DNA of 42,077 nucleotides from Acidimicrobiaceae bacterium (GCA_027306925.1 DAHUXW010000054.1:1-42077), one strand, 5' to 3'. Shown: positions 549 through 32,602, numbered from the stretch's first letter. Program-made: numbers and translations. The notes: generated from the sequence alone by a model not told the origin.

Positions 549-759
549 CGCCGGCCGCCGAGCCGCCCTCGTCCGTCAGCGCAACCGGCTCCACCCTGGC
601 GAGCTCCAGCGCGAGATCACTCGGCTCTGCACGGAGCTCCAGCGCCTCGCATCGACGAAGCAGCCGATGCCGATCCGTCGCGTCAATCGGGCCGTCAACG
701 CCTCGTCTCATCCGGAGCTCTTCCGTGAGGAAACGACTCACCGCTCCCGGAGATCTTGA
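439..759 (+). mobile_element. C-terminal fragment of a DDE integrase-core transposase (IS481/IS3-like)
   Basis: The frame reads KLTERARIGAKVGKRHDA, then TPLERTIRSGVLTAGRRAAL and LHPGELQREITRLCTELQRL. This pattern (GAKVxKRxD, ATPxxR, Lx(P)xELxREI) is typical of the segment after the DDE core of many actinobacterial integrase-type transposases. The catalytic core is absent, so this is a non-functional remnant of roughly the last 100 residues. It meets the truncated peptide-binding-protein gene on the opposite strand between about 445 and 480. The assignment rests on remembered family patterns; the exact IS family is uncertain. No inverted-repeat pair or target duplication could be defined. Confidence 0.6.
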
Positions 760-853
760 CATGAGGCAACCGGGACCGCAGGAACGCCCCGCGGGGCGCC
801 CGGGCCCCGAAGTACCGTGATCGGGTGACGGGCGCCCGGGGAGGCCGGCAGCG

Positions 854-2077: not shown

Positions 2078-2105
2078 GCTCGCCATTCGCGCCCGGCCGG
2101 GCCGC

Positions 2106-4239: not shown

Positions 4240-4250
<11 letters not shown>
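2106..4250 (+). CDS. Double-domain GT2 glycosyltransferase
   Basis: About 710 residues with two glycosyltransferase-like halves. The first (about 100-360) has VLAIVTTFNESDIVAGL, VVDNWSSDGT and the DxD-like HHDADEIREP. The second (about 415-640) is a rhamnosyltransferase-like GT2: IADNSPSPTL, HGGAHNRLL, the donor-site VLFLNPDTCASP, and FFLYCDDVDLSWRARLAGY near the acceptor site. Between them lies a low-complexity linker with a duplicated 10-residue unit (PAADVPAADR). A second GTG at 2121 is an equally good start; neither has a strong ribosome site. The stop overlaps the next gene by 11 bases, so translation is probably coupled. Likely acts on a lipid-linked or cell-wall glycan; specificity unknown. 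Confidence 0.8.
3284..3343 (+). repeat. Two tandem 30-bp units in the interdomain linker
   Basis: Two adjacent 30-base copies with a single mismatch encode PAADVPAADR twice in the Ala/Pro/Asp linker between the two glycosyltransferase domains. The length is a multiple of three, so the reading frame is kept. Confidence 0.85.
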
Positions 4251-6228
<1,978 letters not shown>

Positions 6229-8472: not shown

Positions 8473-9633
8473 TTGGCTGACCAGCTCGGGAGCTATGAAG
8501 ACTGGCCGGCCTTCGCGCTCGGACGCGGCCGCCCCGGGACTCCGGAGCGGGGCGCGGCACCGCCTCGGCCGCTTCGCGACCTCGTGCGCATGGCGCCCGG
8601 GCGGCCTCCGCTCGACGTGCGAATCGAGCGGACGTGGGATCGCGACGGCGTCGCGGGGGAGGAGGTCTCCTGGTCGGTCGGGTTCGGTCCCCGGACCCGC
8701 GCGTGGCTGCTCCGCCCGGCCGGCGCGACCGGGCCCCTCCCCGCCGTGCTCGCGCTTCACGGGCACGACGACTACAAGCTCCTCGGGAAGGAGAAGATCG
8801 CGGACGGGCCGGACGGCACCGCACCGGGCTTGCGGGCGGTCCGCGCCGACTACGGCGACCGGGCGTTCGCGAACGCGCTTGCCGCCGAAGGCTTCGCTGT
8901 GCTCGTCCCCGACGTCTTTCTGTGGGGTAGCCGCCGATTCGACCGAGCAGCCATCGACGAGGCGCTCGCCTCAGCCTCCCACCTCTCGTGGGTCCGCCCG
9001 TGCGTGGAGCCGACGACCTCCCCGCAGGGCACGGACCCTTTCGCCGAGGCGACCTCCTACAACCGCGTCGCCGCGCTCCACGAGGACGTCGTGGAGCGCT
9101 GGTGCAGGGTCCTCGGGACGAGCCTCGCGGGCGTGGTCGCCTACGAAGACGGGGTTGCCCTCGACTACCTCCGGTCCCGGTCGGACCGGTGCCGAGGTCC
9201 GGTCGTCGCGATCGGCTGCTCGGGGGGGGGCGCCCGCGCTGCGCTCGTCGGGGCGACCTCCCCGGGCGTCGACGTCGTCGCGATCGTCGGCATGATGTCC
9301 ACCTACCGACCGATGGTCGACCGGCACGTGGCGACCCACACCTGGCTGTTGTTCCCGCCGAACCTCGCCCCGGAGCTCGACTGGCCCGACCTCGTCGCGT
9401 CGCGGGCGCCCGCCCCGCTGCTCGTGCAGTACGCGCTCGACGACGCGCTGTTCCCGAGAGAGGGGATGCTGGCCGCCCACGAGATACTGGCCGACCGCTA
9501 TCGGGCAACGGGGCGACCCGACTCCTACGTCGGCCAGTTCTACGCCGGCGGGCACCGCTTCGACCGGGCGATGCAGGACGCTGCGTTCGAGCAGATCCGA
9601 CGCTTCCTCCGAACGACGGGAGGCGCCTCATGA
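8473..9633 (+). CDS. Alpha/beta-hydrolase of dienelactone-hydrolase/acetyl-xylan-esterase type
   Basis: A 386-residue alpha/beta hydrolase. The oxyanion region is PAVLALHGHDDYK, the nucleophile elbow is AIGCSGGGAR (GxSxG), the acid is probably in YALDDALFP, and the His is in YAGGHRFD. An N-terminal segment with a beta-rich WSVGFGPRTRAWLLRPAG precedes the fold, as in carbohydrate-esterase relatives. No signal peptide is seen, so it is cytoplasmic. The start is TTG with an AAAGGA site about 13 bases upstream; I chose it because no ATG or GTG fits. It opens the catabolic island and converges on the PLP-enzyme gene with a 13-base gap. Removal of an acyl group from an imported sugar is plausible. 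Confidence 0.75.
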   Translation: MADQLGSYEDWPAFALGRGRPGTPERGAAPPRPLRDLVRMAPGRPPLDVRIERTWDRDGVAGEEVSWSVGFGPRTRAWLLRPAGATGPLPAVLALHGHDDYKLLGKEKIADGPDGTAPGLRAVRADYGDRAFANALAAEGFAVLVPDVFLWGSRRFDRAAIDEALASASHLSWVRPCVEPTTSPQGTDPFAEATSYNRVAALHEDVVERWCRVLGTSLAGVVAYEDGVALDYLRSRSDRCRGPVVAIGCSGGGARAALVGATSPGVDVVAIVGMMSTYRPMVDRHVATHTWLLFPPNLAPELDWPDLVASRAPAPLLVQYALDDALFPREGMLAAHEILADRYRATGRPDSYVGQFYAGGHRFDRAMQDAAFEQIRRFLRTTGGAS

Positions 9634-9646
9634 CTGGCTCCCGCGA

Positions 9647-10849
9647 TCAGTGGAACGCGGTCTCGATCTCCCCGGTCACGACTCCTGCGTCGTCGACGAG
9701 GAGCACCGTCCGCCACTTGTCGAGCACCGTGCACGGGTGCGAGAGACCGAAGCTCATCCGGTCCCCGACGGCGAGGGGGTGGTCCGGGTCGAAGCGGAGG
9801 TAGCAGTGCTGGTCGTCGAGCCCGGTCACCTCTGCGGCGATCGGCGCCGAAGTGCCCGAGGCCCGTGCGACCCACCGCAACGGGACGGGCAGGTCGATGT
9901 CGTAGGAGCTGTCGCGCTTTCCGAACCCGACGATCGCGAGCCCCGGTTCCGGGACCGACAGCACGACCGCCCAGAGTTCGAGCGCAGCTCTAAGGTGCCG
10001 GCCGTCGGGCGGCCCGGAGAGCGGTGAGACAGCCTCGTAGAACCCGTGGTCGTGGGTGACGTAGCTGCCCGGGCGCAAGACGAGGATCGCCTCGGCGCCG
10101 ATCCTGGCGACGGCCGGGCCGAGGACCTCGACGGCGCGGTCGAAGTACTTCCCGCCGCCGGCGGACACGAGGGCTCGATCGGGGCGGACCAGCTCCTCGC
10201 GAATGACGACCTCGGCGAGCCGTCCGAGGTCGGCGAGGTACGCATCGACCGCGGCGAGCGCGTCGGGCGTGCGCTCAGAGGAGATGACCCCCTCGTATCC
10301 CTCGACTCCAGCGAGCCGGAGGCCGCGCACCGGCGCGGCCGCACGCGCGACCTCGACGCCGGTCGCGACGTCGCGTGCCCCGCTCCGGGCGGCGGGAACG
10401 CCGAGCTCCACCAGGACTCCGATCTCCGCGTCACCCCCGATCGCGTCGAGCGCTTCCTCGAGGAGCTCGACGCCTGCCACGGAGTCCACGAGGACGTAGA
10501 GCTCGCGCCCCTCGACCTCGAGGAGACGGATCGCCTCGCGGATCTCGAGCGCGGTCGCGACCTCGTTCGCGACGAGCACCCGCCGGGCGCCGGCCCCGAA
10601 CGCCACCGCCGCCTGGGTGACGCTCGCCGTCGTGATCCCCCAGGCCCCGTGCGCGAGCTGGCGACGGAGCACCTCCGGTGCGAGGGTCGTCTTCGCGTGC
10701 GGTGCGAGCGCGACCCCGTGTGCGCGCGCGTAGGCGGCCATCACGGTCATGTTGTTCTCGAGCGCCCGCTCGTAGAGAACGAGGACGGGAAGCGCGACGT
10801 CGCCTCCCGGGACCGATCGAGCGGCGGCGCGGTGGCTCCCGCCCGTCAT
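9647..10849 (-). CDS. PLP-dependent D-threonine aldolase / D-serine dehydratase-like enzyme
   Basis: A 400-residue fold-type III PLP enzyme. The alanine-racemase-like barrel carries the Schiff-base Lys in LAPHAKTTLAP (near residue 52), followed by GAWGITTASVTQAAV. The C-terminal D-serine-dehydratase-like domain has the metal-binding His-x-Cys in LSHPCTVLDKWR near the end. Relatives cleave or dehydrate D-beta-hydroxy-amino acids. It is the last gene of a minus-strand run (binding protein, NagB-like, aldo/keto reductase, RidA, SDR), so an amino-sugar-derived hydroxy-amino acid is an attractive substrate, but that is inference. The ATG at 10849 lies 55 bases after the SDR stop, with a weak AGGG site. 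Confidence 0.8.
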   Translation of the reverse strand: MTGGSHRAAARSVPGGDVALPVLVLYERALENNMTVMAAYARAHGVALAPHAKTTLAPEVLRRQLAHGAWGITTASVTQAAVAFGAGARRVLVANEVATALEIREAIRLLEVEGRELYVLVDSVAGVELLEEALDAIGGDAEIGVLVELGVPAARSGARDVATGVEVARAAAPVRGLRLAGVEGYEGVISSERTPDALAAVDAYLADLGRLAEVVIREELVRPDRALVSAGGGKYFDRAVEVLGPAVARIGAEAILVLRPGSYVTHDHGFYEAVSPLSGPPDGRHLRAALELWAVVLSVPEPGLAIVGFGKRDSSYDIDLPVPLRWVARASGTSAPIAAEVTGLDDQHCYLRFDPDHPLAVGDRMSFGLSHPCTVLDKWRTVLLVDDAGVVTGEIETAFH

Positions 10850-10904
10850 CGGGCCGTCGCCCTACGATGCGACGGGTGCCGGCACCCGTGAGGTCGCGTC
10901 GGGA

Positions 10905-11723
10905 TCATGCGTTGTAAGGCAACGCCGGCCCCGACGGGAGCACGGACATGAGACCGCCGTCGACCGAGAGCGTGGAGCCGGTGACGAACGAGGCGAGCGA
11001 CGACGCGAGGAACGCCACCGCATGCGCCACCTCCTCGGGCTGTCCCATCCGTCCGAGCGGGTGGCACGCGGCCATGCGCTCCAGCTGCTGAGCGGGCGAG
11101 CGCGCGACCTGCACCTCGCGCCGGACCATCGGGGTGTCGATGGTCCCCGGCATCACGGCGTTCGCGCGCACCCCGTAGGGCGCACCCTCGAGCGCGAGGG
11201 CGCGCATCAAGCCGAGGTCGCCCGCCTTCGAGGCAGAGTACGCGCAGGCGTCGGGGACCGTCGCGAGCGCATGGGGGGAGGACATCACCACCATCGAGCC
11301 TCGCCGCTGCTCGCACATGACCGCGAGCGCGGCTCGTCCGAGGAGGAAGATCCCGGTGAGGTTCACCGCGAGCACGCGCTCCCACTCCGCGAGCGAGGTG
11401 CTTCTCAAGTCCTTCATCCACTCGACCGCCGCGTTCAGGTGCACGACGTCGAGCCGGCCGTGCCGGCTCACGAGCGCGTCGACCATCGCGACGACGTCCG
11501 ATTCGACGGCGACGTCGCACTCCACGTGCTCCGCGCTCGCGCCCTCGTCGCGCAGCGCCGACGCGAGGGCCGCGGCGGAAGCTGCGTCGACGTCCGCGAT
11601 CACCACGGTCGCGCCCGCGCCGGCGAACAGTCGGCTCACCGCACCGCCGATTCCGGCCGCGCCGCCGCTCACGCACACGACCTGACCCTCGAACAGGGGC
11701 CGCCAGAAACCGTCCGGTGCCAT
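10905..11723 (-). CDS. Short-chain dehydrogenase/reductase (SDR)
   Basis: A 272-residue classical SDR. The nucleotide-binding motif is VSGGAAGIGGAVSRLF, the adenine-site acid is in IADVD, the NAA segment is LNAAVEW, the catalytic Ser is in VMSSPHA, Tyr-Lys is YSASKAGD, and SVDGGLMS closes the fold. It should oxidise or reduce a hydroxyl group with NAD(P). The start is ATG at 11723 with GGAGGGA about ten bases upstream; residues upstream in the same frame are Arg-rich noise. It lies 61 bases after the RidA stop and before the PLP enzyme, suggesting a shared pathway. Confidence 0.85.
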   Translation of the reverse strand: MAPDGFWRPLFEGQVVCVSGGAAGIGGAVSRLFAGAGATVVIADVDAASAAALASALRDEGASAEHVECDVAVESDVVAMVDALVSRHGRLDVVHLNAAVEWMKDLRSTSLAEWERVLAVNLTGIFLLGRAALAVMCEQRRGSMVVMSSPHALATVPDACAYSASKAGDLGLMRALALEGAPYGVRANAVMPGTIDTPMVRREVQVARSPAQQLERMAACHPLGRMGQPEEVAHAVAFLASSLASFVTGSTLSVDGGLMSVLPSGPALPYNA

Positions 11724-11784
11724 CACGCTCTCGTCCCTCCAGGGGGTCGCCGACCGCTCGTCCACGGCCCTTTCCGAACGGTCG

Positions 11785-12171
11785 TCAGCTCGCGTCGCAC
11801 ACGGCGAGGACCGTGACCTCGACCTTCGCTCCGGCACCGAGCGCCACGCCGACTGTCGTCCGCGTGGGGTACGGAAGCGCGAAAATCTCGGCGTAGCGCG
11901 CGTTCATCGCCGCGAAGTCCGCGAGGTCGGCGAGATAGACCTCGACTCGGACGACGTCGTCGAGCGTCGCACGCGACGCCGCGAGCGCGGCATCGACGTT
12001 CCGGAACGCCTGCACGAGCTGCTCGCCAACGTCGTCGGAGACGAGGCGACCGGTCTCGGGCACGGTGCCGATCTGCCCCGCCACCGACACGACCGATCCG
12101 ATCCGCACCGACTGCGAGTACGTCGCCGCGGGCGGCGGCGCGCCCGTCGTGCGTCCCTCGATCCTCGTCAT
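11785..12171 (-). CDS. ridA: RidA/YjgF-family enamine/imine deaminase
   Basis: A 128-residue RidA-family protein: TYSQSVRIGSVVSVAGQIG, LVQAFRNVDAALAASRATLDDVVRVEVYL and PYPTRTTVGVALGAGAKVEV follow the family order. The conserved Arg of the deaminase site may be the R in PTRTT, where the family usually has an Arg. RidA hydrolyses reactive 2-aminoacrylate-type enamines released by PLP dehydratases, which fits the PLP enzyme two genes downstream. The start is ATG at 12171 with a perfect AAGGAGG seven bases upstream. Confidence 0.85.
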   Translation of the reverse strand: MTRIEGRTTGAPPPAATYSQSVRIGSVVSVAGQIGTVPETGRLVSDDVGEQLVQAFRNVDAALAASRATLDDVVRVEVYLADLADFAAMNARYAEIFALPYPTRTTVGVALGAGAKVEVTVLAVCDAS

Positions 12172-12265
12172 GACGACCTCCTTCGTCTTCGACGCGCGCA
12201 CGCGCTCGACCCGCCTCCGACAAGTGCGCCGAGCGCGGTGCCGGCCCGACGCGTCCGGCGCCCCG

Positions 12266-12289
12266 GCGCATTGGCGCATTGGCGCATTG
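12266..12289. repeat. Three tandem copies of an 8-bp unit (GCGCATTG)
   Basis: Three exact GCGCATTG units sit directly after the aldo/keto reductase stop and before the RidA gene. Probably a slippage tract; no function is apparent. Confidence 0.85.
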
Positions 12290-12290
12290 G

Positions 12291-13346
12291 CTAGCGGTAG
12301 TTGCCGATCAGGCTCAGGTCGCCGGGACTGAGCCGGTCCGCGGCGCTGTCCGCCTGGTGCCAGTAGGGGTAGAGGAGCCGGGGCCTGCTCAGCTCGTCAA
12401 GGCGCGCACGCTCCTCGGCGGTGAGCTCCCACTCCGCAGCGCCGACATTGTCGGCGAGCTGGTCCTCAGTGCGAGCGCCGAAGATGACCGAGGTCACCGC
12501 TGGCTTGCCGAGGAGGTAGACGAGCGCGGCCTGGGCCGGCGAGCGACCGTGCGCCGTCGCCACCTCGACGAGCGCCTCGACGATGTCGTACATGCGCTCC
12601 TCGTCGTGGATCGGTGGCTCGCGCCACTCGTCGTAGCGCGTCTGGCGCGCCCCTTCCGGCGGGGTCGCGTTCCGACGGAACTTGCCCGAGAGCAGGCCGC
12701 CCGCGAGCGGGCTCCACACGAGGATGCCGAGCCCCTCGTCGATCGAAAGAGGGACGAGCTCGTACTCCACGTCCCGGTCGAGCAGCGAGTAGTACACCTG
12801 CTGGCTGACGTAGCGGACGAAGCCCCGGCGCTCGGAGACGCCGAGCGCCTTCATCACGTGCCAGGCGGAGTGGTTCGAGCAGCCGATGTAGCGGACCTTG
12901 CCCTGGTGGACGAGCGTGTCGAGCGTGTCGAGCGTCTCCTCCAACGGCGTGAGGCCGTCGCGCTGGTGCACCTGGTAGAGGTCGATGTACTCGGTGCCGA
13001 GGCGGCGCAGGCTCGCCTCGCACGCCTGGATCAGGTAGCGCCGCGAGAGCCCGGCATCGTTCGGCCCGTCGCCCATGGCGAAACGGGCCTTCGTCGCGAG
13101 GACGACGCGGTCCCGCCGGCCCCGGAGCACCTCGCCGACCATCTCCTCCGAGCGTCCGCCCGAGTAGATGTCCGCGGTGTCGATCAAGTTCACCCCGGCG
13201 TCGAGGGCCCGGTCGACGATGCGACGGGCCTCGGCGACATCGGTGTTGCCGACGACGGCGAAGTCGCCGCTCCCGCCGAAGGTCATGGTTCCGAGCGCGA
13301 GCGCCGAAACGCGAAGCCCGCTATCTCCCAGCTGACGGTATTCCAC
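12291..13346 (-). CDS. Aldo/keto reductase
   Basis: A 351-residue NAD(P)H-dependent TIM-barrel oxidoreductase. It has YRQLGDSGLRVSALALGTMTFG, the catalytic Asp/Tyr in LIDTADIYSGGRSEE, the Lys in VLATKARF, the His in YQVHQRDG, and YIGCSNHSAWH. It reduces aldehyde or keto groups, probably on a sugar. The frame allows ATG at 13361, but GTG at 13346 is preceded at eight bases by GGAGG and gives the usual family N-terminus, so I chose it. It follows the NagB-like gene by 176 bases in the same run. Confidence 0.85.
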   Translation of the reverse strand: MEYRQLGDSGLRVSALALGTMTFGGSGDFAVVGNTDVAEARRIVDRALDAGVNLIDTADIYSGGRSEEMVGEVLRGRRDRVVLATKARFAMGDGPNDAGLSRRYLIQACEASLRRLGTEYIDLYQVHQRDGLTPLEETLDTLDTLVHQGKVRYIGCSNHSAWHVMKALGVSERRGFVRYVSQQVYYSLLDRDVEYELVPLSIDEGLGILVWSPLAGGLLSGKFRRNATPPEGARQTRYDEWREPPIHDEERMYDIVEALVEVATAHGRSPAQAALVYLLGKPAVTSVIFGARTEDQLADNVGAAEWELTAEERARLDELSRPRLLYPYWHQADSAADRLSPGDLSLIGNYR

Positions 13347-13522
13347 CGATCTCTCCTCCATCGTTGCTCAACGCTTCGAACCTCCGGGCTCCCTGCGAAC
13401 CTCGGGGCGATCCGGGCGGCTTTCCAACCCTCGGCCGAAACCGGTCTCGACCCGGCCTACGACTGTGCACCTGCGACCTCGGCACACCGACAGCTCGACG
13501 GCTCCGTGTGGGCGGCCGTCGC

Positions 13523-14314
13523 TCACACCGCCACCTCCGTCCGACCCTCGTAGGCCGCTTCATCCACGTACAGCGTGCAGTCGGGATGAGTGCGCAGCGC
13601 CGAGGCCGGACACGCCTCGTCGATCGACCCTTCCAGCGCCCGACCAAGCGCCTCGTGCCGCAGCGCGCCGGGGACCACCCCGACGAGCTTCTGCGCGGAC
13701 AGTAGCGCCGGGACGGTCATGGTGTAGGCCGTGCTCGGCACGGACTCGAGCGATGGGAAGTGACCGTCGTTCACGGCCTGGCGTCGTGACCGCTCGCCGA
13801 TCGTCACGAGACGGACGAAGCGACGGTCGGCGAACCGGGCCCTCGGGGGGTCGTTGTACGCGAGGTGCCCGCTCTCGCCGATCCCGAGGCACACGAGGTC
13901 GAGCGGCTCAGCTCTGAGCAGCTCCTCGTAGCGGTCGCACTCGACGCTCGGGTCGTCGCCGGTGCGGATCCGGTTCACCGCTCCCGGACGGACCGCCTCG
14001 AACAGCGCGCGATCGAGGAACTCGGCGAGGCTCGCCACGCCCGGAGGCACCGCTGTGTACTCGTCCATCTGGAACGTGGTCACCCGACCCCACTCGAGGT
14101 CGGTCGCCGCGCGAAGCGCCGCCAGCATCTCCCGCTGGGACTGCGCGGCGGCGAAGACTACCCGAGCGCTCCCCTTGGCGCGCACGGCGGCACGAATGGT
14201 GTCGGCGATGTCGGCTCCGGCGGCCGAACCGGCGGCGCCACGCGACCGGTAGATCCGGACGCGGAGCGGACCGACCATCCGCTCGCGAGCCACGTCATCC
14301 AGTCCATCGCCCAC
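13523..14314 (-). CDS. NagB/glucosamine-6-phosphate-isomerase-like protein, copy 1
   Basis: A 263-residue member of the glucosamine-6-phosphate deaminase/6-phosphogluconolactonase superfamily. The substrate loop is VVFAAAQSQREML (usually LxxGxTP). TTFQMDEYTAVPPG keeps the proton-transfer Asp of the DEY motif. The second motif reads CLGIGESGHLAYNDPP, where E. coli NagB has GxGNDGHxAFNEP: the position of Asp141 is Ser, His143 is kept and Glu148 is Asp. It may therefore isomerise or deaminate a sugar other than GlcN6P, or have lost activity. The start is GTG at 14314 with AAAGGAG six bases upstream. It follows the sugar-binding-protein gene in one transcription direction. Confidence 0.8.
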   Translation of the reverse strand: MGDGLDDVARERMVGPLRVRIYRSRGAAGSAAGADIADTIRAAVRAKGSARVVFAAAQSQREMLAALRAATDLEWGRVTTFQMDEYTAVPPGVASLAEFLDRALFEAVRPGAVNRIRTGDDPSVECDRYEELLRAEPLDLVCLGIGESGHLAYNDPPRARFADRRFVRLVTIGERSRRQAVNDGHFPSLESVPSTAYTMTVPALLSAQKLVGVVPGALRHEALGRALEGSIDEACPASALRTHPDCTLYVDEAAYEGRTEVAV

Positions 14315-14467
14315 CGGTACTCCTTTCCGTCCGACCACGCGAGCGGCTTCGCCCGGCGGGAGCACGCCCGCCGCCGACGAGCGCGGCGCCCCGGCGGCGG
14401 CGAGGATCACTGTCCTTCGCCGAAGGACGGCGGCCCGGGCCGTCCGACGGCCTCGGCGGGCGAGGAG

Positions 14468-14506
14468 CTCCGCCCGGCTGCCCCGACCACGGACAGCCGG
14501 GCGGAG
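14468..14506 (-). terminator. Intercistronic 13-bp hairpin after the sugar-binding-protein gene
   Basis: CTCCGCCCGGCTG and its exact reverse complement enclose a 13-base loop. The hairpin lies about 30 bases past the binding-protein stop and before the first NagB-like gene. No U tract follows. It may protect the upstream message or partly terminate, a usual way to make more binding protein than enzyme. Confidence 0.6.
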
Positions 14507-14532
14507 GCTCCACCCTCACCGACTCCTGAGGC

Positions 14533-15942
14533 TCACTTCTTCTTGTAGTGAGTGGCCGCCCAGCTCGAGTACTGGCTTTGTAGCGAGCTGATGAACGCCG
14601 AAGGCGAGGTCTGCCCAGCCAGGAGCTCGCCCACGCCCGCGGCGATCGAGTTGAGAAGGGGCGGCGCCGCCCAGTCCATGAAGGGGACGAGCTGGTGGCT
14701 CGAGACGTCCTGCTTCCAGCCGACCGTCGCGGAGCGCGCCATGGCCGGGACCGAGGCGAGTGCCTTTGCAGACACGGCCGTCACGGGGATGTTCCCGGCC
14801 TTCAGCTGCATCGCCTGGACCTGCGGGCTCACGACCCAGTCGATCCACGCGGCCGCTGCGGCAGGGCTGTTCGAGTGCGCCGGGATCGACCAGCCTTCAC
14901 CCGTCCCACCGGTCGCGGTCGGTGGGACCCAGAAGCCCGCCTTGTCGCCGAGCGCGCTCTGGACCGCGCCGATGTGCCAGTTCCCTTCGATGAAGAATGC
15001 CGCCTTGCCGCTGTCGAACAGGTTGAGCGCCTGCGTCACGCCCGTTCCCTGGTATCCGGCGGAGAGGTAGCCGTCCTTCGCCCAGCTCACATACGTCTGC
15101 GCGGCCTGGACGGCCGGCTTCGTATTGATCGTCGGGTTCGCGCCCTTGTGGAAGATCCAGTTGTTGAGCGAGCTGGCCGACACGTAGTGGTCGAGAAGGA
15201 ACTGGAGATCGTGCTCCGGCTGGTACTCGGTCGGCTGGCCTCCCGCGAAGGACATCACCGTCTTCCCGGCCTTGTGGACGAGCGCCAGGTCGTTCACGAA
15301 GCTCGCCCACGAGGTCGGGGGCTTCGCACCTGCGGCGGCGAGGATCGCCTTGTTGTAGAAGACGCCGACGACGGCCCCGGACCACGGGACCCCGTACACG
15401 TTGCCCTGCCCGAAGTTCACACCGTCAGAGGTGAACGAGTTGATCTGGAGCGGAAGGCTCCCGACGCGCTGGGCCCAGTGGTAGTAGTTGCTGTAGGCGT
15501 TGAGCGACATCAGCTCCTTGTCGGTGACCAGACGACCCATCGAGCCGAAGCCCTCGTTGGTCTGGCTCACCGTAGGGGCGCTCGACGCCGTCGCGAAGGC
15601 GAGCGGGAGCTTGTCGGTCTGCTCACCGAGGCTCATCGAGGTGTTCGCGACCTTGATGTGCGGGTACTTCTTCTCGAATCCCTTGATCACCGCGGGAAGG
15701 ATTGCCGCCGAATCCGGACTGTCCGCGGCCGTGTCCCAGTTCCACTCGGTCATGGTCATCGAGGTGTTCGCGTTGATGATTGGAACCGGTGGCGTCTTCG
15801 ACGCGGTCACGACCTTCGCGGTTGGCGACGCGGCCGCAGGGACGACCACCGCGAGCGCGAGCGCCGCGCTCGCCACCACCCCGACGGACATCCCGGTCCG
15901 TGACGACCGGCGACCGTGGCTCCCCGATCTCTCTTGAGTCAT
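14533..15942 (-). CDS. Sugar ABC transporter substrate-binding protein (CUT1 type)
   Basis: A 469-residue exported binding protein. An N-terminal basic stretch (GSHGRRSSRTG) precedes a hydrophobic segment and an Ala-rich cleavage region. There is no lipobox Cys. The mature part shows the family-1 pattern: VIKGFEKKYPHIKVANTSM, YGVPWSGAVVGVFYNKAIL, FDSGKAAFFIEGNW, and WIDWVVSPQVQAMQLKAGNIPV. The ATG at 15942 has GGAGGGG just upstream; an earlier ATG four codons before lacks this spacing. It should deliver an oligo- or amino sugar to the two permeases at 19.2-21.1 kb. No ABC ATPase lies in the window, so a shared MsiK-like subunit elsewhere is likely. Confidence 0.85.
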   Translation of the reverse strand: MTQERSGSHGRRSSRTGMSVGVVASAALALAVVVPAAASPTAKVVTASKTPPVPIINANTSMTMTEWNWDTAADSPDSAAILPAVIKGFEKKYPHIKVANTSMSLGEQTDKLPLAFATASSAPTVSQTNEGFGSMGRLVTDKELMSLNAYSNYYHWAQRVGSLPLQINSFTSDGVNFGQGNVYGVPWSGAVVGVFYNKAILAAAGAKPPTSWASFVNDLALVHKAGKTVMSFAGGQPTEYQPEHDLQFLLDHYVSASSLNNWIFHKGANPTINTKPAVQAAQTYVSWAKDGYLSAGYQGTGVTQALNLFDSGKAAFFIEGNWHIGAVQSALGDKAGFWVPPTATGGTGEGWSIPAHSNSPAAAAAWIDWVVSPQVQAMQLKAGNIPVTAVSAKALASVPAMARSATVGWKQDVSSHQLVPFMDWAAPPLLNSIAAGVGELLAGQTSPSAFISSLQSQYSSWAATHYKKK

Positions 15943-16099
15943 GCTCCCCTCCATTCGCTCGACGAGGCACGGTCGCCGCCCTCTCTTGGCGGTCGTGGCC
16001 TCTTGCTGTCCAAAACGCTGCTGGCGGCCCGCGCCGGCTCCCAGGGCCCCCGTCACGAACGCCGTTCGCGGTACCTGGCCCCCGTCTCCCCTCGTCCGG

Positions 16100-22179: not shown

Positions 22180-23178
22180 CTACTCGGGGAGCTTCGTGTC
22201 GTCCTGGTGGTAGACGAAGCCGTCGATGGCGAGCCCCCGGATGCGAGCGATGCTTCCGACGAGCAGCTGGACCGGCGCGATCTCGAGCACCGCACGGGTG
22301 ACCGGCCCGGCGGGCGGAACACGGACGACCGAGAGTCCTCGCGACTGCTGCACCTCCACGGAGGTGAGGAGCACGACTGGGATTCCCTGTCCCGCCATGT
22401 AGCGGGCGAGCTCGACCTCGCGACGGTCGCCGAACACGACGCAGCCGCGATCGGGCCCGAGCGACTCCATCGGCCCGTGCAGGTACTGGCGCGTCTCGAA
22501 GGCAGCAGTCGGCATCCGGGTCGCCTCGCGGAACAGGAGCGCCGACTCCGACGCGCTCGCGAACGAGGCGCCGTGCCCCACGAAGTCGAACGCGGCGAGC
22601 CCGGAGGTAAGGCCGGCGATCTCCTCCATCTGGTCCGCCTGCTCCGACAGGACGCGACCGAGCTCCTCGGGGAGCTCGCCGTACTGCTCGCCCGGCGTCG
22701 CCGCGCCGAGCGCGTCGGCAAGCAGCCCAAGGGCCTGCAGCGTCGCCGTGTACCCCACCGTGTACACGGGGCTGTCCTCCCCGTGTCCGATCGTCACGGT
22801 GAGGTCGACCGCGAGCGCGAGCGGGCTGTCGCCGACGTTCGTCATCCCGAGGCGCCCGCCGGCGTCCAGGCGGTTCGCGGCCCCGACCGTCTCCGTGCTG
22901 CGTCCGCCCTCGGAAACGAGCACGAAGCTGTCGGCGAAGGCCGAAGGCTGCACGTCCTCGAGGAGGGCCGATGCCTCGAGATTCGTCGCACGACGCCCCG
23001 CTCGACGGAGGCGCTCGACGAGCGCCCAACCGGCGTGCGACCCCGCTCCCATCGCGACCACGCCGAGGGTTCCGGTCCCCCACGGCGACAGGTCGCTCGC
23101 CGCGAGCGTCTCCACGACCCGGGCCCGCGTCAACTCGAGGTTCTCGGGCTGCGACGCGACGGCATCTTCGTACTTCAT
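22180..23178 (-). CDS. Double-SIS-domain sugar isomerase/deglycase (GlmS/AgaS/FrlB-like)
   Basis: A 332-residue protein with two SIS sugar-isomerase domains: VVAMGAGSHAGWALVERL and LVSEGGRSTETVGAANRLD in the first, FVGHGASFASASESALLFRE in the second. The GlmS-like catalytic loop is ETRQYLHGPMESLGPD, and the C-terminus is VYHQDDTKLPE. The SIS consensus SxSGxSxET is SEGGRSTET here, one substitution. Such proteins isomerise or deaminate amino-sugar phosphates or cleave fructosamine-type adducts. The ATG at 23178 has GGAGG eight bases upstream. It is divergent from the BadF-type kinase, which could supply its phosphorylated substrate. Confidence 0.8.
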   Translation of the reverse strand: MKYEDAVASQPENLELTRARVVETLAASDLSPWGTGTLGVVAMGAGSHAGWALVERLRRAGRRATNLEASALLEDVQPSAFADSFVLVSEGGRSTETVGAANRLDAGGRLGMTNVGDSPLALAVDLTVTIGHGEDSPVYTVGYTATLQALGLLADALGAATPGEQYGELPEELGRVLSEQADQMEEIAGLTSGLAAFDFVGHGASFASASESALLFREATRMPTAAFETRQYLHGPMESLGPDRGCVVFGDRREVELARYMAGQGIPVVLLTSVEVQQSRGLSVVRVPPAGPVTRAVLEIAPVQLLVGSIARIRGLAIDGFVYHQDDTKLPE

Positions 23179-23392: not shown

Positions 23393-24340
23393 GTGCCGAG
23401 TCTGTTTGCGGGTGCCGACGTCGGCGGCACGAAGGCGCACGTCGTCGTCGCAGGGCATGGCAAGGAGCCGGTCGAGCGGACTGTGCCGACGTCCGCCTGG
23501 TACGCGAGAGCGATCCCCGGGGTCGGAGCCGGTCTCGCCGCGACGGTCGCCGACCTCGCGCCAGGCACGCTCGACGCTCTCGTCGTCGGTGCGCACGGCT
23601 GCGACACTCGCGACCAGGGTGCACGGCTCGCCCGCGACCTCGGCGAGCGCCTCGGCACCACGGTCTACGTGTTCAACGACGCGGAGCTCGTGCTCCCGGC
23701 TGCTGGCGTCCCGACAGGTATCGGGCTCATCATCGGCACCGGGTCGATCGCCATCGGCTACGACCGCGACGGAACCATGATCACGGTCGGCGGCTGGGGC
23801 GGATACCTCGGCGACGAAGGAAGTGGAACCGGATTGTTCCGCGACGCAGCGCGGGCGGTGACGCGAGCCGTCGATCGCGGACGGTGCGACGACCCGCTGA
23901 AGGATGCCCTCGTCGAGCTCCTCGCGCTTCGAGACCTTCGAGACCTGCCCGCACGTCTCTCCACGGAGCTCAGTCCGACCGCCTGGTCCGCGCTCACGCC
24001 GCCGCTGTTCGAACGGGCGCTCGCCGCGGGGTCGCCGCTCGCGAACGGCGTCGTCGAGAGCTCCGCGGAGGCGCTCGCCGAGCTCGTGGCCGTCGCGCGC
24101 GGGCGCGGCGCGAACACCCGGGTCGTCGTGCCAACAGGGGGAGTCGTGAACAACGCCCCGTGGCTGCGGACGGCGCTCGAGCGAGCACTTGCGCGCACCT
24201 GCCCGGACAGTCGCGTCCAGTACCTATCGGTGCCCCCCGTGCACGGCGCGCTCAGGCTGGCCGAGCAGGCCGCGGCGAGGGTCCGCGGCGAGCCGGTCCA
24301 AGGGCGGCTGCACCCGCTGCTCGGGGGCACGGCCGAGTAG
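23393..24340 (+). CDS. BadF/BadG/BcrA/BcrD-type kinase, probable N-acetylglucosamine kinase-like
   Basis: A 315-residue ASKHA-fold ATPase/kinase. It has FAGADVGGTKAHVVVAG (phosphate 1), VYVFNDAELVL, the adenosine-side LIIGTGSIAIGYDRDG, and the NAGK-like GGWGGYLGDEGSGTGLFRDA. The C-terminus is VPTGGVVNNAPWLR. It probably phosphorylates an amino sugar taken up by the ABC system. The GTG at 23393 has AAGGGGG about five bases upstream. It is divergent from the SIS protein and convergent with the third NagB-like gene (50-base gap). Confidence 0.8.
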   Translation: MPSLFAGADVGGTKAHVVVAGHGKEPVERTVPTSAWYARAIPGVGAGLAATVADLAPGTLDALVVGAHGCDTRDQGARLARDLGERLGTTVYVFNDAELVLPAAGVPTGIGLIIGTGSIAIGYDRDGTMITVGGWGGYLGDEGSGTGLFRDAARAVTRAVDRGRCDDPLKDALVELLALRDLRDLPARLSTELSPTAWSALTPPLFERALAAGSPLANGVVESSAEALAELVAVARGRGANTRVVVPTGGVVNNAPWLRTALERALARTCPDSRVQYLSVPPVHGALRLAEQAAARVRGEPVQGRLHPLLGGTAE

Positions 24341-24390: not shown

Positions 24391-25173
24391 TCAGCGGACC
24401 GGCCGGAACGCCGCTTCGTCGGCGAACAGCGCTGCCGACGCGTGCCGCCGCAGGATCGTCGCGGGACATCCTTCGTCGACCGGGCCGCTCATCACCCGCG
24501 ACAACGCAGCCGCCTTTCGCGACCCAGGCACCACCGCGACGATGTGGCGCGCCGAGAACAGCGCCGGGATCGTGACCGTGACCGCCTCGCTCGGCACCTC
24601 GGAAAGCGACGCGAAGCAACCGTCGTTCAACTGCTGCTGGCGCGACTCCTGCGTCAAGGGCACGACGCGGACCCACCGGTCGTCAACGAAGCTGCTCGCT
24701 CCTGGCTCGTTGAAGGCAAGGTGCCCGTTCTCCCCGACCCCGCAGCAAACGAGGTCGATCGGTGCCTCGCGGAGCTTCGACTCGTAGCGGAGGCACTCGC
24801 CGAGCGGGTCGGAGGGATCGATGAGGTTCACCGCTCCCGGTCCCGCGGCCTCGAACAGCTCGCGCCGCAGGAACGAGGAGAACCGTTGCGGCGCGTCCGG
24901 CGACAGTCCGACGTACTCGTCCATGTGGAAGGCAACGACTCTCGCCCATGCGATCCGCGTGCTCGCGCGAAGCGCCGCGAGCAGCTCGAGCTGGGAGGGT
25001 GCGGACGCGAAGACGATCCGCACGACGTCTCTGGATGCGAGCTGGTCGACGATCAGGTCCTCGACGACACTCGCCGCGGCTTCGCCCGCCTCGGCTCGCG
25101 AGGCGTAGACGTTGATGTCGAGCAGCTCGACCCGACGGTGATCGATGCGTCGGACGTCGGCCGGGGTTGCCAC
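24391..25173 (-). CDS. NagB/glucosamine-6-phosphate-isomerase-like protein, copy 3
   Basis: A 260-residue superfamily member and the closest of the three to NagB. IVFASAPSQLELLAAL stands for the phosphate loop, AFHMDEYVGLSPDAPQRFSS keeps the DEY Asp, and CCGVGENGHLAFNEPG keeps His143 and Glu148 but has Asn for Asp141. NDGCFASLSEVPSEAVTVTI and the C-terminal SGPVDEGCPATILRRH are typical of deaminase homologues. GTG at 25173 has AAGGAGGTGGA upstream. It ends the minus-strand run of epimerase, gluconokinase-LarA fusion and dehydrogenase, 144 bases after the dehydrogenase stop. Confidence 0.8.
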   Translation of the reverse strand: MATPADVRRIDHRRVELLDINVYASRAEAGEAAASVVEDLIVDQLASRDVVRIVFASAPSQLELLAALRASTRIAWARVVAFHMDEYVGLSPDAPQRFSSFLRRELFEAAGPGAVNLIDPSDPLGECLRYESKLREAPIDLVCCGVGENGHLAFNEPGASSFVDDRWVRVVPLTQESRQQQLNDGCFASLSEVPSEAVTVTIPALFSARHIVAVVPGSRKAAALSRVMSGPVDEGCPATILRRHASAALFADEAAFRPVR

Positions 25174-25317
25174 CTCTCCACCTCCTTCGAAGGCGCGCTC
25201 GCGTCGGACAACGTCGAAGCCGCGCGCGCGACGTGGACCGAGCGCCCACCGTCCGACGGTACACCCGACGCGACGAGCCATTCGGCCGCGCGCCCCGACT
25301 ACCGAAGCCAGTCGCGC

Positions 25318-26715
25318 TCACGCGTTCGCGCGACGTCGGGCGGACGCCTCCAGCTCGCGACACTGCTCGGCCACGGCCGTCGTGACGTCGTCGTCGGCGC
25401 CGACCGCCGGATCGAGCGCCGTGCACACGCGGCGCGCCGCTTCGACGACTGGCCCCGCTGCGAGCGGCACGAGCACGTCCGCGCGCACGTCACGGACGGG
25501 GGTGCCCGACCCTCTCAGGTGGCAGAGCCAGGCGGCGAGCACCTGCGTCGCCGCGCGGGGCACTCGCCCCTCGGCGCGCTCGGCGCGCAGCACGGGAAGG
25601 ACGCGGACCGGGAGCTTCTGCGACCCGTCCTCGGCGATGCGAGCAAGCCGGTCGCGCATCCTCGGGTTCGCGAAGCGCCCGGCGAGCGCGTCGCGATATG
25701 CGCCGAGCTCGTCCGCGCCCTGGGCGAGATGACCGGAGGCGGTCGCCCACCAGCTGTCGACCCACCCCCGGCACTCGTCGTCACGCACGGCTTCGGCGAC
25801 CGTGTGCCAGCCGAGGATCGAGCCACCGTAGGCGAGGAGCGAGTGGGCGCCGTTCACGAGCCAGAGCTTGCGCTGCTCGTAGACGGTCGCGTCGCCGGCG
25901 AAGACCGCTCCGCCGTCTTCCCAGCGCGGCCGGCCCGAGGGGAACTCGCCGGAGAGCACCCATTCGCTGAACGGCTCGGTGACCACGGGCGCGTCGTCGC
26001 GCCATCCGCGAGCGTCCGTCCACGCGCCGGCCCCGCTCTCAGGCCGCGGGGTGATCCGGTCAACGACAGTCGTGACGAACCCGACCGACCCGTCGATCCA
26101 GTCGGCCAAGGCGCCGTCGAGACGTTCCGCGAGGTCGGTCACGACCTGCCGGACGAGCTCGCCGTTTTCCGCCACGTTGTCGCAGGGCACAACCGCCACC
26201 GGGCCGGCGTCCGACCGACGGCGGGCAGCGAGCCCGGCGACGAGGCGCGCGGGCGCGGTCGCGACCGCGGCCGTCGCGTCTTCCCGGAGACGGGCCACGT
26301 CGGCGAGGACGTCCGGGCGCGACCCGTCGAGACCCCCGCCTCGTGCCGAGCAGTACCCCGCCTCGGTCACGGTCACGGTGACGACCGCGACGGCCGGCGA
26401 GGCGAGATGCCCGAGCCACCCGACATGGTCCGCCCCCGCACGCGCCTCGGAGAGGCTCCCGACGATCTCCGTGGTGTCGTGCTCCGGACCCCGCGCCACG
26501 AGCGCGTAGAGGCCCTCTTGGGCCTGCAGCACCCGTGCGACGTCCTCTCGATGCCCCGAGTACGCCGCGTAGCCCCAGCGCTCGGCGTCCGAGGCGTGCT
26601 CGGTGTACCACGCCTGGTGGGCACGGAAGAAGTTGCCGAGCCCGAGGTGGACGAGGTTCACCGGGGCCTTCGCCCTCACGCCGCATCGCGCTCGAGACAG
26701 GAGGTGCGCGTTCAC
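25318..26715 (-). CDS. Mannitol/fructuronate-type polyol dehydrogenase (UxuB/MtlD family)
   Basis: About 465 residues of the long-chain polyol dehydrogenase family. The NAD site is NLVHLGLGNFFRAHQAWYTE, then VVPCDNVAENG, GFVTTVVDRITP and VTEPFSEWVLSGEFP. The catalytic signature K-x4-N-x2-H is KLWLVNGAHSLLAYGG. Family members interconvert D-mannonate and D-fructuronate, tagaturonate and altronate, or mannitol and fructose with NAD(H). Next to a gluconokinase-LarA fusion, the fructuronate/mannonate reaction is the most economical guess. The GTG at 26715 gives the usual N-terminus but has only a weak ribosome site. It lies 70 bases after the fusion gene. Confidence 0.8.
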   Translation of the reverse strand: MNAHLLSRARCGVRAKAPVNLVHLGLGNFFRAHQAWYTEHASDAERWGYAAYSGHREDVARVLQAQEGLYALVARGPEHDTTEIVGSLSEARAGADHVGWLGHLASPAVAVVTVTVTEAGYCSARGGGLDGSRPDVLADVARLREDATAAVATAPARLVAGLAARRRSDAGPVAVVPCDNVAENGELVRQVVTDLAERLDGALADWIDGSVGFVTTVVDRITPRPESGAGAWTDARGWRDDAPVVTEPFSEWVLSGEFPSGRPRWEDGGAVFAGDATVYEQRKLWLVNGAHSLLAYGGSILGWHTVAEAVRDDECRGWVDSWWATASGHLAQGADELGAYRDALAGRFANPRMRDRLARIAEDGSQKLPVRVLPVLRAERAEGRVPRAATQVLAAWLCHLRGSGTPVRDVRADVLVPLAAGPVVEAARRVCTALDPAVGADDDVTTAVAEQCRELEASARRRANA

Positions 26716-26785
26716 CGACCGAGCACCCCGCACGGCGCGCCTGCGCCAGGCGCCGAGCTCGCGAGCGCGGCTGCGCGGGCCACCC

Positions 26786-28621
26786 TCACGCGCCGACGAC
26801 GCGTCCTTCGGCGCTCCAGAGCCCGAGCGCCGGGTTCGCGATGTGATACCAGGTGGCACCGTCGCGAGCGACGCGCTCGCCGCTCGGCGAGCGCTCGTCG
26901 ACGCCGAGCTCCTCGAGCACCTCCGGGAGCAGGCGCCAGCCGTACCCGACCGACTCGACCTCGTCGCGGCGGAGGCCACCGCGGTCCGGATCCGTGCAGT
27001 AGGTGATCGAGAACCGCCCTTCGCTGCTCCCGTGGACGAGATGCGCCGCGGCGCTCGCGTTCGCGGCCAGCTCCGGATCACGGGCGAGCGCCTCGACGAC
27101 CGCCGGCGTGCCCCGGTAGCCGTGACGGCGGATGAGCGAGTCGATGCGGGAGTCCTCCCCGAAACTCGACACCCCGGGCGCGAGCACCAGCAGCTGCGCT
27201 CCGTCCGCGAGGGCCATGCGCGTGCGGTAGATCGCCTTGTTCCCGAGCCAGGTCGAGTGGAACTCGGCGGCGTCGAGATAGCACGACACCCGCGTCAGCG
27301 AAGTCGGGACGACCTCCACGTTGCACTCCGCGGCGAGCCGCGCCGCCACCCGGTACGCCGCGCCCCCGGTCTCGCCGCTCCCACCCCGTCCCGTGAACGC
27401 GCCGCGGAGAACCGTTCCCTCACCGTCGTGCTCGACGACGGTGAGGATCCAGAGCACGCGGACGGCGGGGGCGAGGAACCGGTCGAAGGCGGCGTCGACG
27501 ACGTCACGAACCGGTGTCGACGAGCGGCCCATGAGCGTCTCCATGTCGCAGAGCGCTCCGAGGAGGTGGGTCTGGTCGATCGTCCCAGCGCCGCCGAGCC
27601 CGATCACCAGGTTCTTCGTGAAGTTCGCCATTCCGACGACCTCGTGAGGAAGCACCTGGCCGACGGAGATCACGAGATCCCAGCCGTCGAGGAGCTGGGC
27701 ATCGACCGCCACCGGGATCGGCGCGCGGAGCCGACCGCCGGAGAGCTCCCGGACCTCGTCCCCTCCGATCTCCCCGATCTTCACCACGCCGTCTCGCCAG
27801 TCGTGGCGAAGGACGCGGCCCGCAGGCACCCGACCGTCGAAGAGCAGGTCGACCTCGCCAGAGGTCATCGCCCGGTGGGTCCCGGTCGCCGGCAGGACCG
27901 CCACCTCCACGCCATCGCGCGCGAGCACCTCGAACAGGCGGCCCGTGAGCTCGCCCGCTCGCGAGTTGCGCCGCGTGTGGTCGGGCGGGACGAGAAGGAC
28001 GCGGCGCGCCCGTGCGATACCGACCTCCTCCGCAGCCGCGGCGACCATCTCCTCGAGGTCGTCGCGCCCGAGCACCGACGAGGCGCCTCCCCAGCTCCCG
28101 AGCGGCGCGACCGCCGTTCCCGCAGCGAGCTTCCCGACGGCGAGGATCGCCTCGTCGGCGACGGCTCCGGGCTCGCGCGACGCGTCGAGGGTCGCGACGT
28201 CGGTCTCGTCGCGCCCCGGGATCTCGAGCGCGGAGAACTGGCCGTCAACCATCGTGGGGGCCATGAAGTGGCCCGTCCGGAGCCGCGTGCGGCGCTCCGC
28301 GTCCCGCCGGGCGACGGACAGGTGGACGAAGCAGACGTCTCCCGCCGCCCGGAGCGCGTCGCGATAGGCGCGACGAAGGGCCGAGCAGGACACCACGGCG
28401 GACTCCCGGTCACGCAGCTCCCGCCGGACTGCCGCGAGCCACGGCCATCGCTCCGCGTCGGTGAGCGGGACGCCGGAGCGCATCTTCTCGACGTTCTCCG
28501 CCGGGTGGAGGTCGTCTCCTTCGACGAACGGCACGCCGAGCCGCGCCGCGATCTCGGAGCCGATCAGCGACTTCCCCGACCCGGCGACCCCCATCACCAC
28601 GATGCGTCTCGGTGAGCTCAT
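26786..28621 (-). CDS. Gluconokinase fused to a LarA-type nickel-pincer racemase/epimerase
   Basis: A 611-residue two-enzyme fusion. Residues 1-165 are a full-length GntK gluconokinase: P-loop MGVAGSGKS (10-18), FVEGDDLHPAENVEKMRSG, and HFMAPTMVDGQFSALE. Residues about 180-611 are LarA (DUF2088): LLVPPDHTRRNS (DHTR at 214-217), TGTHRAMT (His249), VLPHEVVGMANFTKNLV (His326, Lys336) and GTIDQTHLL (His352). These match the two catalytic His, the cofactor Lys and the nickel His of lactate racemase as I recall them. LarA relatives include D-gluconate 2-epimerase. The fusion would thus make D-gluconate from D-mannonate and phosphorylate it to 6-phosphogluconate. The ATG at 28621 fits GntK; an ATG seven codons upstream is possible. 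No larB/C/E genes are in the window. Confidence 0.85.
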   Translation of the reverse strand: MSSPRRIVVMGVAGSGKSLIGSEIAARLGVPFVEGDDLHPAENVEKMRSGVPLTDAERWPWLAAVRRELRDRESAVVSCSALRRAYRDALRAAGDVCFVHLSVARRDAERRTRLRTGHFMAPTMVDGQFSALEIPGRDETDVATLDASREPGAVADEAILAVGKLAAGTAVAPLGSWGGASSVLGRDDLEEMVAAAAEEVGIARARRVLLVPPDHTRRNSRAGELTGRLFEVLARDGVEVAVLPATGTHRAMTSGEVDLLFDGRVPAGRVLRHDWRDGVVKIGEIGGDEVRELSGGRLRAPIPVAVDAQLLDGWDLVISVGQVLPHEVVGMANFTKNLVIGLGGAGTIDQTHLLGALCDMETLMGRSSTPVRDVVDAAFDRFLAPAVRVLWILTVVEHDGEGTVLRGAFTGRGGSGETGGAAYRVAARLAAECNVEVVPTSLTRVSCYLDAAEFHSTWLGNKAIYRTRMALADGAQLLVLAPGVSSFGEDSRIDSLIRRHGYRGTPAVVEALARDPELAANASAAAHLVHGSSEGRFSITYCTDPDRGGLRRDEVESVGYGWRLLPEVLEELGVDERSPSGERVARDGATWYHIANPALGLWSAEGRVVGA

Positions 28622-28679
28622 CGCCGGACGCGAGACGAGCATCCCGAGGGCCGGGGTGCAACGATCACCCGGCGGATCG

Positions 28680-29600
28680 TCACGGCACGCCTCCGAGCTC
28701 GAGCTCCATCCACCACCGCACAACCTCGCCCGGCTGGAGATACCGCGCGCGCCCGAGGTGGACGGCGCGGTCGAGCGCGTCGTAGTAGCTCGTGGTCGGC
28801 TCGATCGCGACGACCTGGCCCGTGGTGCGAAGGCCGTGGTCGAGCCAGATCCCGAGATACCGGCACGTCGTCGTATCCGCCGTGCAGCTCAGCCGCTGGC
28901 CGTCGTCGACCTCGAGCACCGCTCGCTCGAACGTCTCGTCGGGCGGGAGGTAGCACATCCGGTCGCCACCGGGCTCGACGTCACGGGCGACCTCGAGCCC
29001 GTCCTCGTATGGGATCTCGAAGGGCTGGTCGCCAGCCGTCACGTCGACGAGCGCGCTCGGCTCGGGCTCGATTCGCAACCGCGCCCCGGTGGCGACGAGC
29101 TGCGGGTGGGCCGCCCACAGCGTCGGCATCGGCTCGTCGGCCCTCGAGACGAGCTCGTACTCGGCGCGCACGCTCGAGTCCCGCAGCGAGAGGCGTCGGG
29201 TCAGGGAGAAGTCGGGTCGTCGAGTCTCGACGCGCAGCGTGCAGTGCGCCGAGGACTCGTCGACGAGACTCCACGGGACGGACCAGACCGCGCCGTGGTC
29301 GTGCAGTTCGACCCCCGGGAGCGCCTCGCCGGGGAAGGGGCAGGGGTCTACCGTCGGGAGCATCTCGTCCCAACCGAAGTGGTCGGTGTCGACGTAGCGC
29401 GTGCCGGCGGGCGCCGCTGGCTCGAGCACCTCGGAGCGCGGCTGCTGCAGCCACTCTCGCGCCGTTCGGCGGTCGACGAGGCTCGCGACCCGCGCGCCGA
29501 GCCCGGGAAGGACCACGACCCGAAGCGAAGCGTTCTCGAGGACAATTGCCTGCACGCCGTGCCAGGCGACCCGCGGTGCTCCGTTCGGCGCGTCGGTCAC
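28680..29600 (-). CDS. Aldose 1-epimerase-like protein
   Basis: A 306-residue beta-sandwich galactose-mutarotase-type protein: [53 protein letters not shown] (a candidate catalytic His), [12 protein letters not shown] (second His) and [15 protein letters not shown] (candidate catalytic Glu). Such proteins speed anomer exchange of free or phosphorylated aldoses. The GTG at 29600 has no clear ribosome site. It is the first gene of the run leading into the gluconokinase-LarA fusion, 58 bases away, and may prepare the sugar entering that route. Confidence 0.75.
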
Positions 29601-29910: not shown

Positions 29911-29982
29911 CGGAGCACCCGGAGCACCCGAAGCACCCGGAGCACTCGGAGCACTCGGAGCACTCGGAGCACTCGGAGCACT
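29911..29982. repeat. 9-bp minisatellite, eight tandem units
   Basis: Eight contiguous nonamers, CGGAGCACC or CGGAGCACT with one CGAAGCACC. On the minus strand the helicase-relic frame reads through them as repeated Cys-Ser-Glu. The array starts exactly where the helicase homology stops (after TPADYAQ). Confidence 0.95.
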
Positions 29983-31931: not shown

Positions 31932-32195
31932 ATGGCGCGGGTGACGGACATCCCTGCACGCGAGCTTCGAAACGACGTCAGCGCCGTGCTCCGTCGGGTC
32001 GAGCACGGCGAGCGTCTCAGGGTGACGGTGAGCGGCCGGGCTGTGGCCCAGCTGCTGCCACTGCCCGCGCGTCCGAGATCGATGGCCTGGGACGCCCTCT
32101 TCCACGACAGCGAGCGCTGGCGTGCCGATCCCGGGCTCGCGGACGAGCTGTCGGACCTCCTGCCAGGTACGACCGACGACCTTCCGATCACATGA
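31932..32195 (+). CDS. Phd/YefM-family antitoxin
   Basis: An 87-residue antitoxin. The N-terminal DNA-binding part VTDIPARELRNDVSAVLRRV, GERLRVTVSGRAVAQLLPL is typical of Phd/YefM, and the C-terminal acidic tail (ADELSDLLPG) should wrap the toxin. The frame is open far upstream, but ATG at 31932 gives the family N-terminus and lies next to a palindrome. Its stop overlaps the toxin ATG as ATGA. Confidence 0.85.
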   Translation: MARVTDIPARELRNDVSAVLRRVEHGERLRVTVSGRAVAQLLPLPARPRSMAWDALFHDSERWRADPGLADELSDLLPGTTDDLPIT

Positions 32196-32602
32196 CCTCG
32201 TCCGGCGGGGACGTCGACGGCGAGCTCGCGCTCGCCGACACGTCGCTCTTCATCGCTGTCGAGCAGGACCGACCGCTCGCGTCCCACCCGCCCGATCGCG
32301 TCGCCGTGTCCGTCGTCACCGTCGGCGAGCTGCGGCTCGGCGTCCTCGCGGCGCAGGACGGGCCGACCCGAGCCCGACGGCTGCAGACCCTGTCGGCGGC
32401 GGCGGCACTCGACCCCCTGCCGATCGACGAGGGGGTCGCCCACGCCTGGGCGGCGCTTCGGCTCGCGCTTCGGGACGCGGGCAAGCGAATGCCGATCAAC
32501 GACTCGTGGATCGCTGCGACCGCCATCGCCAACGACCTGCCGGTCGCCTCTCGAGACGGCGACTACGACGGCACTCCGGGGCTCCGGGTCATACGGGTCT
32601 GA
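32192..32602 (+). CDS. PIN-domain toxin (VapC-like ribonuclease)
   Basis: A 136-residue PIN nuclease. The acidic metal site is visible as Asp16 (ALADTSLF), Glu46 (TVGELRLG), Asp104 (INDSWIAA) and Asp122/124 (SRDGDYDG). VapC toxins cut tRNA or rRNA when the antitoxin is degraded. All key acids are present, so it is probably active. It overlaps the antitoxin gene by four bases. The pair is flanked by relics and may have arrived by transfer. Confidence 0.9.
   Translation: MTSSGGDVDGELALADTSLFIAVEQDRPLASHPPDRVAVSVVTVGELRLGVLAAQDGPTRARRLQTLSAAAALDPLPIDEGVAHAWAALRLALRDAGKRMPINDSWIAATAIANDLPVASRDGDYDGTPGLRVIRV

Follow-up and report, generated by a model that had tools for sequence, protein, structure and literature searches.

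Which reaction is carried out by a protein that joins a gluconokinase to a relative of LarA, and which pathway does it serve? The question is raised by a minus-strand run of four genes, separated by about 58, 70 and 36 bases, in an Acidimicrobiaceae bacterium (GCA_027306925.1, DAHUXW010000054.1:1-42077); the whole stretch of 42,077 nucleotides was analysed and is called the window here. An earlier note had read the run as a route from fructuronate through mannonate and gluconate to 6-phosphogluconate. The run and its neighbours comprise the following features.

28680..29600, minus strand: aldose-1-epimerase (mutarotase)-family protein, first of the run (PF01263, 33.6 bits, cut-off 27).
26786..28621, minus strand: GntK-LarA fusion protein, 611 aa; start likely the ATG at 28621 (mechanical ORF to 28723).
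28124..28621, minus strand: GntK/IdnK-type gluconokinase half of the fusion, residues about 1-166; Walker A GVAGSGKS at 11-18.
26786..28096, minus strand: putative LarA/GntE-like NPN-dependent hexonate 2-epimerase half of the fusion, residues about 176-611.
25318..26715, minus strand: mannitol-dehydrogenase-family polyol dehydrogenase of UxuB/YdfI type, probable fructuronate reductase/D-mannonate oxidoreductase (PF01232 and PF08125; GTG start).
24391..25281, minus strand: NagB/6-phosphogluconolactonase-family (glucosamine-6-phosphate deaminase-like) protein, last of the run (PF01182).
23393..24340, plus strand: BadF/BadG-type (GlcNAc-kinase-like) protein, divergent neighbour (PF01869; NF046058 45.7 bits, far below cut-off).
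22180..23178, minus strand: SIS-domain sugar isomerase-like protein (PF01380; GlmS-like matches).

A scan for promoters and terminators gave nothing exceeding chance. About 310 bases upstream of the run, at 29911-29982, lies a 9-bp tandem repeat (CGGAGCACT x 8, 95% matches). Elsewhere in the window, a second minus-strand run (9647-16056) encodes an ABC sugar-binding protein, an aldo-keto reductase, an SDR, a D-serine-dehydratase-domain/3-hydroxyaspartate-aldolase-like protein and a second NagB-like protein that is 49% identical to that of the four-gene run. A PIN-domain gene and the overlapping frame before it, which has a weak match to Phd/YefM antitoxins, below cut-off, form a probable toxin-antitoxin pair at about 31950-32602.

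At the sequence level, both halves of the fusion look complete. In the NCBIfam profile search, the gluconokinase model TIGR01313 (cut-off 113.75) matches with 170 bits. The top model across the entire LarA half is NF052594, 'nickel-dependent putative hexonate epimerase', with 467-469 bits, just below its cut-off of 500. The related fusions of an Ilumatobacter MAG and of a genome of the same family (G420) score 489 and 465 bits, respectively, against the latter model. The Lar_N domain is recognised by Pfam (PF09861, 47.5 bits, cut-off 23.3), and the kinase half carries, besides Walker A, conserved blocks common to the other fusions. Alignment to the Thermotoga maritima GntE2 structure (4nar) places D214, R217, H249, H326, K336, H352 and K462 as equivalents of LarA D72, R75, H108, H174, K184, H200 and K298, the catalytic and cofactor residues of LarA and GntE2 having been taken from published lists. 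In the substrate loop, E327-V328 follow directly after the second catalytic histidine, H326; an E-V pair at this place is a published trait of gluconate epimerases (GntEs). The match of A526-H527 to LarA W358/T359 is read from the pattern, and GntE2 N348 of the 2020 paper aligns elsewhere. The descriptive claims of the earlier note are borne out: a full GntK is joined in frame to LarA, with the TIGR01313 and NF052594 matches sharing one 611-aa frame; the DHTR motif, catalytic histidines, cofactor lysine and nickel histidine are kept, all seven residues being present; a mutarotase-like gene precedes the fusion; and a polyol dehydrogenase with K-x4-N-x2-H, here KLWLVNGAH, comes next.

An AlphaFold2 model of the fusion was built with 39 sequences (mean pLDDT 92.4, pTM 0.78). 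In this model the closest solved fold to the LarA half is GntE2 (4nar; Z 46.1, rmsd 2.0 over 399 residues, for residues 176-605), and the lactate/malate racemase structures LarA and Mar2 lie well under it (Z 27-34). Modelled residues 1-166 match the gluconate/sugar kinases 4eun, 3t61, 1ko1 and 1knq (Z 20-24).

The fusion is thus probably a two-domain sugar-acid enzyme that interconverts D-mannonate and D-gluconate and phosphorylates the latter to 6-phosphogluconate. This is the best reading because of the fold, the neighbourhoods of related genes at 57 of 83 loci, and the cofactor genes larB, larC and larE, to which the earlier note had pointed and which are all found above cut-off in the source genome (235, 398 and 277 bits; genome 97.6% complete, 170 contigs). 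LarB, LarC and LarE would make the nickel-pincer nucleotide that charges the C-terminal half. This half would invert C2 of a hexonate, most likely between D-mannonate and D-gluconate, by proton-coupled hydride transfer, and the N-terminal half would convert gluconate and ATP to 6-phosphogluconate, so that phosphorylation would pull the reversible epimerisation forward. D-mannonate would probably arise from D-fructuronate via the UxuB/YdfI-type reductase of the next gene. We infer which hexonate is used, which way the reaction runs and which of the two steps comes first; the role that the earlier note gave the fusion, from mannonate through gluconate to 6-phosphogluconate, is supported by sequence, fold and neighbours. 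Against it stand the missing UxaC and UxaE, the weak and short 6-phosphogluconate dehydrogenase (6PGD) match, the NF052594 score under cut-off, the amino-sugar genes both in this operon and in that of G420, and a reductase that matches a D-arabinitol dehydrogenase model about equally.

Both the route and its chemistry are known already. Conversion of D-mannonate to D-gluconate has been shown for LarAH groups 19 and 20, and a hexonate has been hypothesised as the substrate of group 18 (Desguin 2020, PMC7583248). The fusion has the E-V loop in common with group 18 (NF052594) and differs from it by the kinase half and by a score of 467 vs 500 bits; the literature search gave no group 18 member whose activity had been measured. 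In T. maritima, gntE belongs to one regulon with gntK, gnd and uxaE (PMC3750489); it adjoins gntK and gnd, and interconversion of D-mannonate and D-gluconate has been measured (PMC7583248). GntE has the LarA fold and the catalytic residues of the fusion (Z 46.1), but in T. maritima the proteins are separate polypeptides, with about 23% identity to the fusion's, and uxaE and uxaC are present, neither of which was found in the source genome. The hexuronate route of the earlier note is therefore not new, having been proposed for T. maritima already, with GntE activity measured.

Neighbours were counted within 5 kb at 83 fetched loci that carry the fusion's LarA type (group 18). The gene gnd was found at 49 of the 83, uxaC at 16, gntK at 12 and uxaE at 11, and at least one of gnd, uxaC and uxaE at the 57 loci mentioned above. 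Widening the distance to 8 kb (85 loci) gave no further gnd. The Ilumatobacter fusion lies directly after gnd, with uxaC 3.8 kb upstream, and that of Saccharobesus litoralis is on a plasmid, beside larB, UxaE (tagaturonate epimerase), gnd and uxaC.

The dehydrogenase of the run is 36% identical to UxuB, 35% to YdfI, 26% to UxaB and 56% to a homologue in Embleya, and its best solved relative is YdfI (4im7). It scores 214 bits against PRK15037 (fructuronate reductase UxuB; cut-off 603) and 225 bits against the D-arabinitol 4-dehydrogenase model, likewise below cut-off. Downstream of the Embleya homologue come larE, larB and uxaC, and a larA diverges from it; at a further locus (L119) larA, a YdfI-type MDH and uxaC are close together. 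The gene at 25318-26715 probably encodes a fructuronate reductase/D-mannonate oxidoreductase of UxuB/YdfI type. The wider hexuronate route of the earlier note stands in part: the UxuB/YdfI-type reductase and the Embleya larE-larB-uxaC run speak for it, whereas no candidate for UxaC (PF02614) or UxaE (PF16257) was found in the source genome at 97.6% completeness, so the supply of fructuronate there is unexplained. The bypass of mannonate dehydratase (uxuA) that the note also envisaged is unsupported, because a UxuA-family protein (PF03786), 27% identical to E. coli UxuA, is encoded on contig C35. The sole match to 6PGD is a weak, short-form one on contig C55 (32% over 313 residues of S. litoralis Gnd).

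Two candidate frames in the genome were rejected as being in the wrong frame: L010:7355-8617 for UxaE and L136:7974-8994 for a UxuA-like gene. On contig C35, a LacI regulator, a DeoC/LacD-type aldolase, an SDR, the UxuA-family protein and an AGE-like frame lie together (L136 2858-13287), a set reminiscent of sulfoquinovose or uronate catabolism. Contig C25 carries a second, group-19-like larA (L130 8420-9735), whose identity to larA of Embleya is 58%. Its reading frame is shifted at 8815-8866, in a perfect repeat of 8 bp (CCCGGCGG x 6.5). The gene may have decayed, the assembly may be wrong at this point, or the repeat may serve as a phase-variable switch by strand slippage.

An alternative, unlikely but to be taken seriously, is that the fusion acts on another hexonate, with the operon serving a mixed uronate/amino-sugar glycan or other sugar acid and the assignment of the fructuronate reductase being wrong or incidental. 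It draws on the NagB-family gene in the operon and on the BadF-type kinase and SIS protein nearby. The scheme of the earlier note, which is supported for both fusion halves, ignores this gene (24391-25281), which lies inside the stretch that the note described, and the AGE-NagB-NagA operon of G420. The NagB-family protein scores 123 bits against TIGR00502, below the cut-off of 236.9, and GlcN6P deaminases are its best solved relatives. Alignment of subfamily members gives ASAPS in the phosphate-loop region, where TGGT/TGST is typical of NagB. In G420, the fusion is preceded by a NanR-like (GntR) regulator and a family-5 binding-protein transporter and followed by an AGE-family epimerase, a NagB homologue (66% to the run's) and NagA; this locus lacks the window's dehydrogenase, and no uronate gene of the search panel was found in the 20-kb stretch round the fusion. 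On plasmids, relatives of the run's NagB belong to operons for amino sugars, together with SIS, amidohydrolase and ABC transporter genes, and a Spirosoma plasmid relative occurs with a beta-N-acetylhexosaminidase. These settings speak for an ordinary amino-sugar function of the subfamily and against a general link to uronates, which had been considered. At a locus in a genome of the same class (L118 in G355, 219-4899), a group-18 larA directly adjoins a NagB-like gene, and a sulfatase (SGSH_C) and a sulfatase-maturing enzyme (FGE) are divergent from the pair; the substrate there may be a sulfated glycan with an amino sugar. Another hexonate would also fit the very high KM of GntE1 for mannonate (PMC7583248). 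However, most relatives adjoin gnd, uxaC or uxaE, and the GntK signature is kept in the kinase half. 

For the operon as a whole, the simplest reading of these neighbourhoods is that its substrate is a glycan with both uronate and amino sugar.

A speculative extension, to which we give a slight chance, is that the operon degrades 2-amino-2-deoxy-hexuronates, for example GlcNAcA or ManNAcA of bacterial glycans. The NagB-like enzyme, with its changed phosphate loop, would take the place of the missing uronate isomerase by isomerising and deaminating glucosaminuronate directly to D-fructuronate, from which the reductase and fusion would lead on to 6-phosphogluconate. In G420, AGE would epimerise and NagA deacetylate.

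The order of steps might also be reversed, the kinase half phosphorylating D-mannonate and the LarA half epimerising 6-phosphomannonate to 6-phosphogluconate, although this is distinctly improbable. Such an order is seen in cell extracts of Lactobacillus suebicus (PMC6978723), the enzymes and genes not being identified there: in its hybrid isomerase-phosphoketolase route mannonate ends as 6-phosphogluconate, as proposed here, but is phosphorylated before it is epimerised, unlike in the order proposed here. That gnd adjoins most group-18 larA genes also speaks for this order. However, the LarA relatives GntE1 and GntE2 use unphosphorylated D-mannonate (PMC7583248), and E. coli GntK is reported, as cited in PMC6978723, not to accept mannonate.

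A sequencing or assembly error that merged two genes is practically ruled out as the source of the fusion, because, even though the source genome is a 170-contig draft and neighbouring unfused gntK|larA pairs exist, the same fusion is found at full length in the same-family genome G420 (69% identity) and in the Ilumatobacter MAG (57%), and GC3 is unbroken across it. The 32-codon junction linker aligns to the G420 homologue without gaps or stops, and GC3 is 0.88-0.95 in all full 40-codon blocks, junction included; the frameshift or sequencing error that the earlier note had allowed for thus finds no support.

The database comparison that the note had suggested yielded further fusions not only in G420 and Ilumatobacter but also in Saccharobesus litoralis and Catenovulum maritimum, where gntK-larA is read through. 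In Alteromonadaceae the two genes are mostly separate but abutting, with TAATG overlaps, and in Catenovulum agarivorans one in-frame TAA stands between them. The S. litoralis CCB-QB4 protein (WP_159084288) and the Catenovulum gntK|larA pairs share both domains and their order with the window fusion, and both loci lie beside larB and uxaC (with UxaE and gnd in S. litoralis), but the fusion there is independent and lacks the 30-residue linker. In the LarA tree, the window and Ilumatobacter proteins form one group (99), apart from the gammaproteobacterial set (100). As judged from sequences, the GntK-LarA fusion has arisen at least twice independently, in Alteromonadaceae separately and from adjacent gntK|larA pairs.

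The GntK-LarA fusion appears to be undescribed. No description was found in the open-licence literature; WP_159084288 is annotated just as gluconokinase, and the Saccharobesus fusion is missing from the pectin-utilisation table of the genome paper. The source genome yielded no UxaC or UxaE but has a NagB-family gene in the run, which points to a so far unexplained route to ketohexuronate or mannonate. The fusion puts two neighbouring steps of a known, little-studied sugar-acid pathway on one chain, and thereby offers one protein for deciding the order of epimerisation and phosphorylation between the Thermotoga and L. suebicus schemes. That it occurs in at least two lineages argues strongly, on comparative grounds, that the group-18 LarA proteins, so far known just as 'putative hexonate epimerases', act on gluconate.
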